A program made the translations under genes and the position numbers. From Lachnospiraceae bacterium (GTDB taxonomy: Bacteria > Bacillota > Clostridia > Lachnospirales > Lachnospiraceae), in contig JAFZNO010000101.1 in assembly GCA_017552985.1 (NCBI GenBank), positions 1 to 54,586 on the forward strand: a stretch of 54,586 nt of DNA, read 5' to 3'. Each line of letters starts with the position of its first letter. Within the stretch, counting starts at the first letter, position 1. The notes below the pieces were generated by a model. It saw only the letters and a program-made list of their open reading frames with translations, made no database searches and was not told the origin of the DNA. This document shows positions 20,935 to 24,813 of the stretch, in pieces.

Positions 20935-22200
20935 TTAGGCAAAGAAAAATGCCTTTGCGGAATGCTTTCTTACGGGAACGGAAAGTACGCCCTCCGCGCA
21001 TCCTTCTTCTCCCGACCAAAGCTCCTTCACTTGAATTCCTCTGCAGATCTCAAGCTCTGCCAAGTCAAGGGTAAGCGTTCCGTCCTCTTCTCCCGCGTTG
21101 AACACGGCAAGGTAATTCCCGCCCTCGGCGGAGACTGCCATCCATACAATAAACTCCGTGCCATTGACCACCCTGCGGAAAACCTGATGAGAATGTCTTG
21201 CGTTGCGATGCATCTTTAAGATTTCTTCGTTGGTAAGGAGCTTCATCGTGAAATCGTCAAATCCCGTCATCTCGCCGCCGATCATCAGCGGAGAACGGAA
21301 GATGCTCCAGAGCGTCAGCATCGTGATCTGCTCATCCTCCGTAAACTTCGTCCAGTTTTCCTTTCCGTAAACCTGATTGATCGGTCCCACGGGTAGCATG
21401 TCTGCATCCGGCCAATGTCCGGCACCGGAGTGGGTACACCACTTTTCCGCCCTCTGGAACATGTCATACAGGAGTTCCCACTTATCCCAGAAGTCATCCG
21501 TGATGCGCCACATGTTACAGGTCTGCTTAAAGAGTTCTGCCTTGTCAAGCGGCGCGGGACCAGGCGAAATGCTGAGCACCATCTCCCGTCCGCAATTCTT
21601 CAACGCCTCGCTGAGCATGACAAGCTCCTCCTCGCACTGAGGCATTTCCCTGGCGATGTCGTCGCACTTGATAAAGTCAACGCCCCAGGATGCATAGAGC
21701 TTGAAGATGCTGTCATAATATGCCCTCGCGCCCTCCCTGTGAGGATCCACGCCATACATGTCGCTGTTCCAAACGCAGATGCTGGCCGTCTTAGCGACTT
21801 CTCGGGCCGTCTTGTCCGTTCCGAGGATTTTCGTATTTTGATGTACTGCCTGCCTTGGAATTCCTCTCATGATATGGATGCCAAACTTCAGCCCCAGGGA
21901 ATGTACGTACTCTGCCAAAGGTCCAAAGCCCTTTCCGCCCGCAGAGGAGGGGAATCGGTTAGGGGCGGGGATCAGTCTGGAATACTCGTCCATGCACAGA
22001 TCCGTAAAGGGATGATACATATGGCTTGTTGCCAGGGGCTCATACCACTGGATGTCAACGACAACGTACTCCCAGCCATACTGTTTCAAATTCTCAGCCA
22101 TGAATTTCGCATTCTGCCTGACAATGTCTTCCGTCACGGCAGCGCCGTAGCAATCCCAGCTGTTCCACCCCATGGGGGCAATCTTCGCCTTTTCACTCAT
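20935..22200 (-). CDS. Alpha-galactosidase, GH27
   Basis: The 421-residue protein is a GH27 retaining alpha-galactosidase. It begins with PMGWNSWDCYG, then VVVDIQWYE, GLKFGIHIMRG, the nucleophile strand DFIKCDD (first Asp near 194) and WRITDDFWD carrying the acid/base Asp. A beta-sandwich C domain ends the protein. No secretion signal is present, so it acts on imported galactosides. It is the second alpha-galactosidase of the window, of a different family from the GH36 enzyme, and sits in the run with the amylase-like enzyme and c-di-GMP genes. The ribosome site GGAGAG precedes the ATG. Beta-L-arabinopyranosidase activity, known in some GH27 members, is an alternative. Confidence 0.92.
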   Translation of the reverse strand: MSEKAKIAPMGWNSWDCYGAAVTEDIVRQNAKFMAENLKQYGWEYVVVDIQWYEPLATSHMYHPFTDLCMDEYSRLIPAPNRFPSSAGGKGFGPLAEYVHSLGLKFGIHIMRGIPRQAVHQNTKILGTDKTAREVAKTASICVWNSDMYGVDPHREGARAYYDSIFKLYASWGVDFIKCDDIAREMPQCEEELVMLSEALKNCGREMVLSISPGPAPLDKAELFKQTCNMWRITDDFWDKWELLYDMFQRAEKWCTHSGAGHWPDADMLPVGPINQVYGKENWTKFTEDEQITMLTLWSIFRSPLMIGGEMTGFDDFTMKLLTNEEILKMHRNARHSHQVFRRVVNGTEFIVWMAVSAEGGNYLAVFNAGEEDGTLTLDLAELEICRGIQVKELWSGEEGCAEGVLSVPVRKHSAKAFFFA

Positions 22201-22243: not shown

Positions 22244-23428
22244 CTATTTCGCCCTCTTCTTCATCTCCAGCTGACGGAGCTTCAGGTTCGTGTTATAGAA
22301 ATCCTTGGTGCTGCATCCGGCCCTGCCGCCACCGGCACAAGCGCAGGCACATGCACAGGCGCAGGCACAGCTGCTGTGCGCGCAGCCGCTGGAAGACCTA
22401 GAGGTCGTAGTAGGCGGCACGTGCGTTACGTGTACGTGCATGTAAGTATGCGGCATGGATGCGTAAGGATAGGTGCCGTCCGTTCTGATCTTCCGAAGTG
22501 CTTTTTCCTCCTTCGGAATCTCTTCCTCCTTGATCACCTCTTCGCTCTTAATAAAGCTCTGTCCGCAGTATGGACAATTGTTCTCTCCGTCCTTCCTCGG
22601 CTCTCCGCAACCGGGACAGGTCTCATGATAAACAATCTTCGTACGGGTGATCTTCGTGGTTCCAAGTCTTGCGTTCCGGTCATAGATCATGGCACTGACA
22701 ACGATAAAGACACAGGTGCCCATGATGATCACAAAAATGATGACTCCCGCAACGGTTCCCGACATACTTCCTTTTTGACCGTCAATTCTGGTCTTTTCCG
22801 GATCAAAATTAAACGCACTGTTGAGGTAGGTCACCTGTACGGGTAACTTCTCACCGTGCTTTAAGCCCTCCTTGGTCCAAACGTAATAAGTGCCGCCGTT
22901 GTAGCTTACCTTATCAACGTTTGGTTCAACGCTCTTTACCTTGTCAGCGTTCCACCGGATCACCAGCTTGTCAATCTTAATGTCATTAAACCAGCCAGGC
23001 GTAAAGCCGTACACCGTCTCACCGTCCACAAACTGGTTCATCTGATAGGTATAGTCCTGAACCAATTTGAATTCAAAGGTTACGACTTCACCCTTCTTAT
23101 ACTTCTTGTCAAAGTCAATCCTCGCGTAGCTTCCGCCGTCAGAATAATAAGCAATCTTCTTGATATTATTTGTCAGCTTCTTCATGGAGACGTACTTTTT
23201 GTTCGGGATTCCGATCTTGACCCATTCCAAGGGGCCTTCCGAAGTGGAATCCAAAACCTTCCACTTAATGTGATAGAGCATGTCAAGCGTTCCGTCTTTA
23301 TTTACGTCGATGGTGATCTCGTAATCCACGATCTGGTCCAGGTCAGCCGCCTGTACGGTTGCCCCGAAGAACGGGATCATCACAAATAGCAGTATGGCCA
23401 AAATCAAAGCCTTTCTCACGTTTTTCAT
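22244..23428 (-). CDS. DUF2207-like membrane protein with cytosolic Cys-Ala repeat tail; candidate radical SAM substrate
   Basis: The 394-residue protein has a signal peptide cut near VQA-A (residue 27), an extracytoplasmic beta-rich DUF2207-like domain (about 28-215) and one membrane helix (about 225-248). It then has a cytosolic zinc ribbon (CPGC at 271-274, CPYC at 285-288), a charged linker, a His-rich stretch, and a tail at 347-373 with Cys349, six Cys-Ala dipeptides from 354 to 365, GGGRAGCS and then TKDFYNTNL. The Cys codons mix TGT and TGC and the Ala codons vary. The ATG overlaps the stop of the radical SAM gene by four bases. I infer that the tail is modified by that enzyme; the molecular role is unknown. 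Confidence 0.8.
   Translation of the reverse strand: MKNVRKALILAILLFVMIPFFGATVQAADLDQIVDYEITIDVNKDGTLDMLYHIKWKVLDSTSEGPLEWVKIGIPNKKYVSMKKLTNNIKKIAYYSDGGSYARIDFDKKYKKGEVVTFEFKLVQDYTYQMNQFVDGETVYGFTPGWFNDIKIDKLVIRWNADKVKSVEPNVDKVSYNGGTYYVWTKEGLKHGEKLPVQVTYLNSAFNFDPEKTRIDGQKGSMSGTVAGVIIFVIIMGTCVFIVVSAMIYDRNARLGTTKITRTKIVYHETCPGCGEPRKDGENNCPYCGQSFIKSEEVIKEEEIPKEEKALRKIRTDGTYPYASMPHTYMHVHVTHVPPTTTSRSSSGCAHSSCACACACACACAGGGRAGCSTKDFYNTNLKLRQLEMKKRAK
22310..22390 (-). other. Coding segment of the Cys-Ala tail
   Basis: These 81 bases encode residues 347-373, with eight cysteines in 27 residues: one at 349, six alternating with alanine from 354 to 364, and one at 372 after GGGRAG. Synonymous codons differ between units, which argues for selection on the peptide rather than recent slippage. 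Confidence 0.85.
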
Positions 23429-24813
23429 TTCTCCATACCTGCCTTTCTGCGAACGATTCTAAGGGGGCATTCACTGCGCATGGTGGCAGAATATGCCCTG
23501 CGAGTCTTACAAGTCTCGCCATTCCATATTTTATCCCAGTCATCCTTCAGGAAATCTCCCAAAGGCGCGTCATTTAGCCAGCTCTGGCAGGGAACCACGT
23601 TTCCTCCCGGCGTAATGGCCATGTTGCTGAGACATGCGCCGCAGTTCGGCGTGCTGATCCCCAGCTCCTTACAGAACTTGTCATCCACCCATCCAGGGGA
23701 AGTGAAACTGATCTCCATGCCATTGGCATAGCAGTATTCCACGGCCTCCTTTAAGATCTCGCGGATCTCGGGAAGGGTCAGCTGAAGGTTTTCCGATGCC
23801 TCCTTCGCTGCGTTACCTGTGGTGATCAGTCCGGAACACGTTACGTACAAAACGCCTTTTTCATGCAAGAATTTCAAAGTCTTCACGTAGTCCCGGTTCA
23901 GGGTGCACAGAGGCGTGTTGATGCTCAGGTTTATGCCTGCTGCCAGCGCATTCTCAATGCCCGCAACGGTATCCTGATACTTGGGCGCGCCAACCAGTTG
24001 ATTGTGGATCTCCTCGTCACAGGAATAGAACGTGATCTGGGCGCTGTCGAGAGACGCTTTCTTCAAGCTCTCGCAATATTCCTTCGTCAGCTTAATGCCG
24101 TTGGTGTTGAGTCTCGTGATAAACCATTTTGCGTGATCGATCAGTTCAAAGAGATCCTCTCGCATCGTAGGCTCTCCGCCGGTAAAGGTCACCTGCGGTA
24201 TGCCAACCTCGCGGCACTTGTCAATGATGGCCTTCCATTCCTCCGTGGACAATTCCTTCTCGGAGGACTGCTCCTGTCCTGCCGCATAGCAGTGCACGCA
24301 GTTTTGATTGCAATGCCATTTTCCTTCCTTGGTCATGGCGCTCACCATCAAATCCATTCTGTGAGGCGCGCGCATGTAAGGCGCATACTCTCCCATGTTG
24401 ATATAGGCGATGGGCTCATTCACCTCTTCGCCGTACGCCACGTGCTTAAAGGTTTCCATGATCGTCTGGATGTCATTCCGAAGACGGCTCTTCAGGACAA
24501 AAGGATAGATTTTCTTCATCTTCTTGCAGGTCTCGTCAACAATGGCCGTTGCCTGTTCGTCCGTGATCTCACGACCTGCGTGTTTATTCACTTCTTCGAT
24601 GAACTCCGTGAGCAAAATGCTCCAGGAACGGCTCACGGGGATCACGTCCTGTCCGTTGATGATGGCAACGCTGTCCTCCACCTCACCATCCTTGATCACC
24701 GGCGGAACCAAGTGGATTCTAACGACGCCGGGACCTTCCGGATTTAACGTCGTGTGACGTACTTCATTAAAATGCGAAAGCGCATATTCTCTTTCTCTTT
24801 TTGTCGTCTTCAT
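23425..24813 (-). CDS. Radical SAM enzyme with SPASM-type domain, candidate protein maturase
   Basis: The 462-residue protein carries the radical SAM cluster motif CNQNCVHC (Cys168, Cys172, Cys175), a GGEP motif at 212-215 and a C-terminal SPASM-like domain with cysteines at 391, 394, 409, 435 and 449. Such domains bind extra iron-sulfur clusters in peptide-modifying enzymes. The N-terminal 150 residues hold a helical region (about 60-105) that could be a PqqD-like recognition element, though this is only suggestive. It starts two bases after the symporter stop and overlaps the downstream Cys-Ala-tailed gene by four bases, so production of enzyme and candidate substrate is coupled. Thioether formation is the likely chemistry by analogy, not shown. 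Confidence 0.9.
   Translation of the reverse strand: MKTTKREREYALSHFNEVRHTTLNPEGPGVVRIHLVPPVIKDGEVEDSVAIINGQDVIPVSRSWSILLTEFIEEVNKHAGREITDEQATAIVDETCKKMKKIYPFVLKSRLRNDIQTIMETFKHVAYGEEVNEPIAYINMGEYAPYMRAPHRMDLMVSAMTKEGKWHCNQNCVHCYAAGQEQSSEKELSTEEWKAIIDKCREVGIPQVTFTGGEPTMREDLFELIDHAKWFITRLNTNGIKLTKEYCESLKKASLDSAQITFYSCDEEIHNQLVGAPKYQDTVAGIENALAAGINLSINTPLCTLNRDYVKTLKFLHEKGVLYVTCSGLITTGNAAKEASENLQLTLPEIREILKEAVEYCYANGMEISFTSPGWVDDKFCKELGISTPNCGACLSNMAITPGGNVVPCQSWLNDAPLGDFLKDDWDKIWNGETCKTRRAYSATMRSECPLRIVRRKAGMEK

Follow-up and report, generated by a model that had tools for sequence, protein, structure and literature searches.

Two overlapping open reading frames (ORFs) on the minus strand of the window, by which we mean the whole stretch of 54,586 nucleotides that was analysed, encode a radical SAM enzyme and, after it, a membrane protein whose C-terminus carries cysteine (Cys) residues alternating with alanine (Ala) (Table 1). 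The two frames share four nucleotides (ATGA), as an earlier reading made without database searches (the sequence-only reading) had described, and its observation of an enzyme paired with a Cys-rich tail is confirmed. A gene similar to Melibiase_2 alpha-galactosidases by Pfam adjoins the pair (window 20935-22200); an alpha-galactosidase-like ORF also adjoins the pair in loci L006 and L008 and lies one gene off in L007.

Table 1. Positions of the gene pair and its features in the window
Feature	Position	Strand	Basis
Radical SAM enzyme, 462 aa, Twitch-like (partial SPASM) C-terminal region	23425..24813	-	ORF
Enzyme N-terminal domain, residues 1-150	24364..24813	-	
CX3CX2C cluster motif, residues 168-175	24289..24312	-	Three Cys in 59/59 relatives
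Auxiliary-cluster region, residues 391-449 (C391, C394, C409, C435, C449)	23467..23643	-	Cys conservation
Membrane protein with Cys-Ala tail, 394 aa	22244..23428	-	ORF
Signal-peptide-like N-terminus, residues 1-28	23345..23428	-	Hydrophobic segment 7-25
Outer domain, residues 29-220, weakly DUF2207-like	22769..23344	-	Weak Pfam match
Membrane helix, residues 226-244	22697..22753	-	Hydropathy
Zinc-ribbon-like stretch, approximately residues 268-297	22538..22627	-	Zn_ribbon_3 at 270-290, below cut-off
Cys-rich tail, residues 349-372	22313..22384	-	Sequence
(Cys-Ala)6 array, residues 354-365	22334..22369	-	Sequence, codon analysis

The enzyme and the membrane protein

The first gene was read as a radical SAM protein on account of its CX3CX2C (residues 168-175) and GGEP motifs, and both motifs are present in a protein that matches Pfam Radical_SAM (PF04055) with 87.6 bits against a cut-off of 29.5. 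The further label 'SPASM-type' holds in part: the Pfam SPASM model scores 30.7 bits, over its cut-off, but the seven-Cys pattern is not there and the region is better named Twitch-like. Twitch domains contain one auxiliary cluster, held by cysteines around a beta-hairpin and the helices that follow. The C-terminal cysteines of the enzyme, which form CX2C, CX9GX4C and two further positions (C435 and C449), appear to fit this arrangement. The SPASM motif, given as CX9-15GX4C-gap-CX2CX5CX3C-gap-C in the available text of PMC6231123, is absent, since just C435 and C449 lie past CX9GX4C. In an alignment of 59 relatives, obtained at 85% identity from 72 sequences that passed a length filter, C168, C172, C175, C303, C391, C409 and C449 are invariant, while C394 is kept in 52 and C435 in 51; the divergent relatives L186, L187 and L188 have valine (Val) at the position of C303 and retain the other eight cysteines.

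Database profiles relate the enzyme to several groups of radical SAM proteins. NCBIfam returned 68 families at E<=1, and none of the 25 listed among these reached its cut-off (best 115.1 versus 500 bits); the NirJ2 and MoaA models outscore that of SkfB. Among 16 PDB sequences found with a profile of the enzyme family, SkfB is the best (E 2.7e-22), in a match that spans the radical SAM core and the following region, common to many enzymes. According to the available text of PMC6231123, SkfB is a thioether-forming sactisynthase composed of an RRE, a radical SAM barrel and a Twitch domain. The N-terminal 140 residues of our enzyme gave weak and scattered Pfam matches (best E 0.00098, in one member). 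PqqD was not among the 25 listed of 28 Pfam families matching the N-terminal domain, no RRE was found among the 10 PDB chains matching it at E<=10, and an hhalign comparison of the N-terminus with a PqqD profile of 21 sequences gave a probability of 28 over 31 columns, with an E of 0.00062 that refers to that single comparison. Elsewhere in the genome of the window (G000) there are five PqqD matches, on contigs C34 (three of them), C122 and C134, which perhaps belong to other peptide-modification clusters. A role in defence was considered and rejected, the only link being similarity of the radical SAM core to a viperin model.

The membrane protein ends in CAHSS(CA)6GGGRAGCSTKDFY and, after the zinc-ribbon-like stretch, its tail reads CAHSSCACACACACACAGGGRAGCSTKDFY. 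Eight cysteines, six of them alternating with Ala, and a following GGGRAGC were correctly noted earlier; they occupy 24 residues (349-372) rather than the 27 given then. A linker rich in glycine (Gly), serine and histidine precedes the tail, and tail proteins are roughly 300-460 aa long. The domains proposed upstream of it proved less distinct. A weak likeness of the outer domain to DUF2207 (PF09972) stands, with E<=0.01 in 9 of 59 tail-protein relatives, but the window protein itself scores 15.5 bits, under the cut-off of 24.4; similarly, a zinc ribbon match is present but its score of 20.3 bits is below the cut-off of 27. With 59 tail proteins NCBIfam gave 19 families at E<=0.1, weak, unrelated and each matched by at most six members, and a PDB search with the tail protein returned two chains alone (best E 0.15).

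Hydropathy places two hydrophobic segments in the window protein, at residues 7-25 and 226-244, in agreement with the signal peptide and single membrane helix read previously. Each of the 59 proteins of alignment A2 has a single hydrophobic segment ahead of residue 60 and a single one beyond residue 149, residues 60-149 being free of them; the N-terminal count is partly a product of row selection, the 59 rows having been chosen by us, nearly all from 79 proteins with start codons picked by script for a hydrophobic N-terminus. Among 123 tail ORFs, 17 are open at the 5' end and five have no hydrophobic start (L061, L065, two in L097, and L174). The flank after the later segment is the more positive in 55 of the 59 A2 proteins. 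Together, the segment pattern and the positive flank suggest that the outer domain lies outside the cell and the tail in the cytosol; hydropathy and charge thus agree with the orientation proposed from the sequence.

Distribution of the gene pair

Tails were sought independently of the enzyme by scanning genome_contigs with a degenerate pattern for CACAGGGRAGC, which yielded at least 118 stretches, some sharing a contig or assembly, with at least 121 motif ORFs. The enzyme was called in these stretches by blastp against the window enzyme (E<=1e-8, partial genes counted). Among the matches listed, it lies within 900 nt upstream of 88 of the at least 121 motif ORFs, and for two more, which are the second tail copies of L097 and L122, it is upstream at a greater distance. 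Five have it downstream with no change of strand, and two within the stretch but on the opposite strand; a further 23 are cut, with less than 90 nt upstream, and one (L061) is without an enzyme. Among the motif ORFs listed, 96 are preceded by at least 90 nt of DNA; 95 of these share their stretch with the enzyme, which for 87 lies upstream by no more than 900 nt. A minimum of 1500 nt leaves 74 of the ORFs listed, of which 73 share the stretch with the enzyme and 66 have it upstream within that distance. The gap between enzyme and tail gene exceeds 100 nt in two of the 88, L035 (708) and L065 (792).

Whole-genome searches found the enzyme at E<=1e-20 in 20 of the 23 genomes with cut ORFs. There is no enzyme match for L067, L099 and L102, in each of which the tail gene exits the contig where the enzyme would lie. 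At L061 (3631-4446) there is DNA on both sides of a tail ORF that has no signal segment, in a genome with no enzyme match. Several loci depart from the simple layout: L097 (3251-5851) and L122 (632-3593) each hold two tandem tail genes behind a single enzyme gene, and in L035 (5019-5282) an ORF of 85 aa, 708 nt past the enzyme ORF, encodes a hydrophobic stretch and the tail and could be a short form or precursor, or part of a frame-shifted gene. Carriage by viruses was rejected, with no exact motif match in viral_contigs.

Searching from the enzyme led to the same association. In a genus sample, the enzyme was found in 15 of 138 genomes (E<=1e-50), and a tail search in 17 of 138 (E<=0.01); the 14 motif-bearing tail genomes are 14 of the 15 with the enzyme, and the fifteenth, G119, has its enzyme gene cut at a contig end. 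Three genomes (G034, G154 and G157) gave tail matches without the motif; the enzyme match is limited to residues 243-461 in G137, and there is an internal stop in G138. In the order sample, 10 of 392 genomes have the enzyme and all 10 an adjacent tail, the inspection of tails having left out L166 and L167, where the expected motif is missing in one frame.

The class sample, searched with the family profile at E<=1e-60, has the enzyme in 10 of 391 genomes. A GGGRAGC tail is adjacent to it in G000, G662, G1032 and G1192; G1138 has two tail genes upstream of the enzyme and G1203 a GGGRVGC variant. In G1211 an array is followed by VGGRVGC, and the tail gene is broken by opposite-strand ORFs, one with a transposase DDE domain; at this locus (L190, 663-1451 and 1528-3264) the part beyond the interrupting ORFs carries CACACACACACAVGGRVGC. 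The tail gene meets the contig end after CACACACACACAGGGR in G1268, while the contig ends in the Gly-rich linker, before the array, in G1132 and in the outer domain in G1095. Across the genus, order and class samples, every genome reached through the enzyme except G119 therefore shows at least the beginning of a tail gene. A tail search of a phylum sample matched 4 of 398 genomes, with the motif solely in the genome of the window and the other three without it. At L181 (1-1505) two tail genes precede the enzyme, one with the array CACACAYACACA. In three genomes belonging to a single family, a related membrane protein of approximately 310 aa is encoded directly upstream of the enzyme (L171 516-1451, L172 539-1456 and L173 541-1470), and the L171 protein had no Pfam match.

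The pair is patchy, being present in 2.6% of the order and class samples, and record labels place it in Clostridia, Bacilli, Acholeplasmatales and Eggerthellaceae. Some gut and rumen bacteria carry it; the gut and rumen Clostridia with the pair include genomes titled Gemmiger formicilis ATCC 27749 and Hungatella hathewayi WAL-18680. Co-occurrence, the test named in the sequence-only reading, thus passes from the tail (95 of 96) and from the enzyme (genus, order and class); the contrary outcome, a tail common in genomes without the enzyme, was not observed, only four tail-only genomes having been met, in three of which a contig end cuts the tail gene. The genes might be merely co-transcribed and have separate functions, as the four-base overlap would allow, such overlaps being common in operons; we regard this as highly improbable, given that the association persists in extra tail copies, in reversed order and on opposite strands, and spans records of Clostridia, Bacilli, Acholeplasmatales and Eggerthellaceae. 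In the 38 loci common to both alignments, mean identity is 32% for outer domains and 53% for enzymes, and the two sets of distances correlate (Mantel r 0.78, reached in 0 of 2000 permutations).

Neighbouring genes were clustered over 91 loci, all short (80 of the at least 118 stretches and 11 others), and among these no gene besides the pair is common to most. The largest other clusters, of 13 and 10 loci, resemble shadow ORFs on visual inspection. Genes for an MNIO partner were rejected as well, PF05114 being found in none of eight genomes tested. An ABC-transporter-like cluster, one member of which was checked with Pfam, occurs in 9 of the 91 loci, and in five related loci its ATP-binding ORF lies past the tail gene by approximately 0.4 to 1.2 kb; an exporter is thus conceivable for part of the family. 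Such a gene and the Gly/Ser/His-rich linker ahead of the tail would suit a tail that serves as a peptide precursor and is cleaved from the membrane protein, its carrier, for release, but the transporter-like gene is missing from the other 82 short loci and the tail is cytosolic by hydropathy, so that we find release improbable.

Conservation and proposed modification of the tail

The run of CX units before GGGRAGC comprises 3-7 units in 102 distinct tails. X is Ala in 543 of 546 units, Gly in two and Val in one, with the reservation that the tails were chosen for GGGRAGC and that the search pattern forced up to 204 of the 546 X positions. The last stretch contains 4 to 11 cysteines, and six or more in 100 of the 102 tails. 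The peptide is constant and its codons vary: Cys is encoded by TGT 328 times and by TGC 213 times, Ala by all four codons, and 55% of codon comparisons show a difference at the third position, while constancy at the first two positions is a consequence of how the tails were selected and carries no independent weight. Tails reached via the enzyme gene carry the same motif, save the GGGRVGC and VGGRVGC variants. The synonymous variation claimed from the window alone extends to the family. An origin of the array as a DNA repeat is ruled out, no single repeated hexamer being found in any of the 102 arrays and third positions being varied. Chance is likewise ruled out, since the same 11 residues are found unchanged in at least 118 stretches, mostly beside the enzyme.

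These observations lend partial support to the interpretation in the sequence-only reading, that the tail is a substrate fused to a membrane protein, and we consider it likely that the tail is what the enzyme acts upon. In the proposed two-gene modification system, the membrane protein would expose its outer domain outside the cell and keep its C-terminal end cytosolic. The radical SAM enzyme of the upstream gene would bind the tail, for which the conserved segment S/T-x-K-D-F-Y after the array may serve as a follower, and would work along the (Cys-Ala)n array in place, forming thioethers between Cys sulfur and a neighbouring carbon, most probably one belonging to Ala. The modified tail would then be retained by the protein, as a cytosolic segment that is rigid and poor in thiols. 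As a whole, this account of cross-linking in place and retention seems to us probable, if by no wide measure.

The near-invariance of Ala points either to chemistry at Ala or to strict recognition, and the varying length of the array suggests repeated action of the enzyme. It is unlikely that the tail binds metal or Fe-S clusters or docks the enzyme at the membrane while the enzyme acts on some other substrate: the tail is Cys-rich and near a zinc-ribbon-like stretch, and the enzyme requires Fe-S clusters, but metal-binding CXC segments usually have no need for one fixed X, which here is almost always Ala. Thioethers are suggested by the Cys content of the tail and by the relation of the enzyme to SkfB, and that they are the main product we judge an even matter. 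The enzyme might instead form C-C bonds, epimerise, dehydrogenate or methylate at Ala or Gly. The spread of NCBIfam scores across many radical SAM families and the constancy of Ala between cysteines would accommodate such chemistry, but the abundance of Cys suggests that sulfur is involved and the nearest solved structure is a thioether former; we hold these other reactions to be rather unlikely.

Modification of the tail would take radical SAM maturation beyond small, released peptides to a protein that remains in the membrane, which would be an unusual use of radical chemistry. Cys-Ala thioethers would be lanthionine-like if the beta carbon of Ala is the acceptor, or sactionine-like if it is the alpha carbon. 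More tentatively, a permanently anchored chain of such radical-made thioethers on a cytosolic tail could be a structural or sensing part of the membrane protein and not a released peptide. Because the (Cys-Ala)n array would offer a substrate of simple, repeated units, the bond is open to direct test.

Comparison with known systems

No published description or curated family of the pair was found in the open-licence PMC literature and the families searched, a corpus that takes in few subscription journals, in keeping with the sequence-only reading, which named no characterised example. In the open-licence literature GGGRAGC gave one match, a PCR primer. The closest parallels are as follows. SkfB and the sactipeptide maturases share with our enzyme a radical SAM core and a Twitch-like C-terminal region, and SkfB is its best PDB profile match; SkfB, however, contains an RRE and takes the SKF precursor peptide as substrate (available text of PMC6231123), whereas here the N-terminal domain is unassigned and the putative substrate is a membrane protein. 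Ranthipeptides and sactipeptides are recognised by a short free precursor; our tail ends a membrane protein. SCIFF and other ranthipeptides are widespread in Clostridia and rich in Cys (PMC8326336, available text); SCIFF is a small free peptide, and that text does not mention a Cys-Ala array. In the Asp-Cys repeat pathway (Cluster 59; Kostenko et al. 2022), a residue-Cys motif, in as many as six copies, is encoded next to a radical SAM gene, but the peptide has a separate gene, the residue is Asp and not Ala, and a recombinase gene is present (PMC9062424, available text).

Membrane proteins have also been proposed as substrates of another class of enzyme. TIGR04222 proteins have a large outer domain and a Gly/Ser/Cys C-terminal region put forward as the substrate of an MNIO maturase (PMC12452194, available text), and thus resemble ours in a Cys-rich C-terminal tail as proposed substrate; there, however, the enzyme is an MNIO instead of a radical SAM protein and the tail is outside the cell. 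TIGR04222 was not among the 19 NCBIfam families matched by the 59 A2 tail proteins at E<=0.1. DUF2207 proteins are similar in a weak outer-domain likeness, but differ in that the window protein falls below their cut-off. Finally, with QhpD and quinohemoprotein amine dehydrogenase, thioethers are placed in a protein (PMC8326336, available text), as proposed here, but they join Cys to Asp or Glu within an enzyme subunit and not in the tail of a membrane protein.
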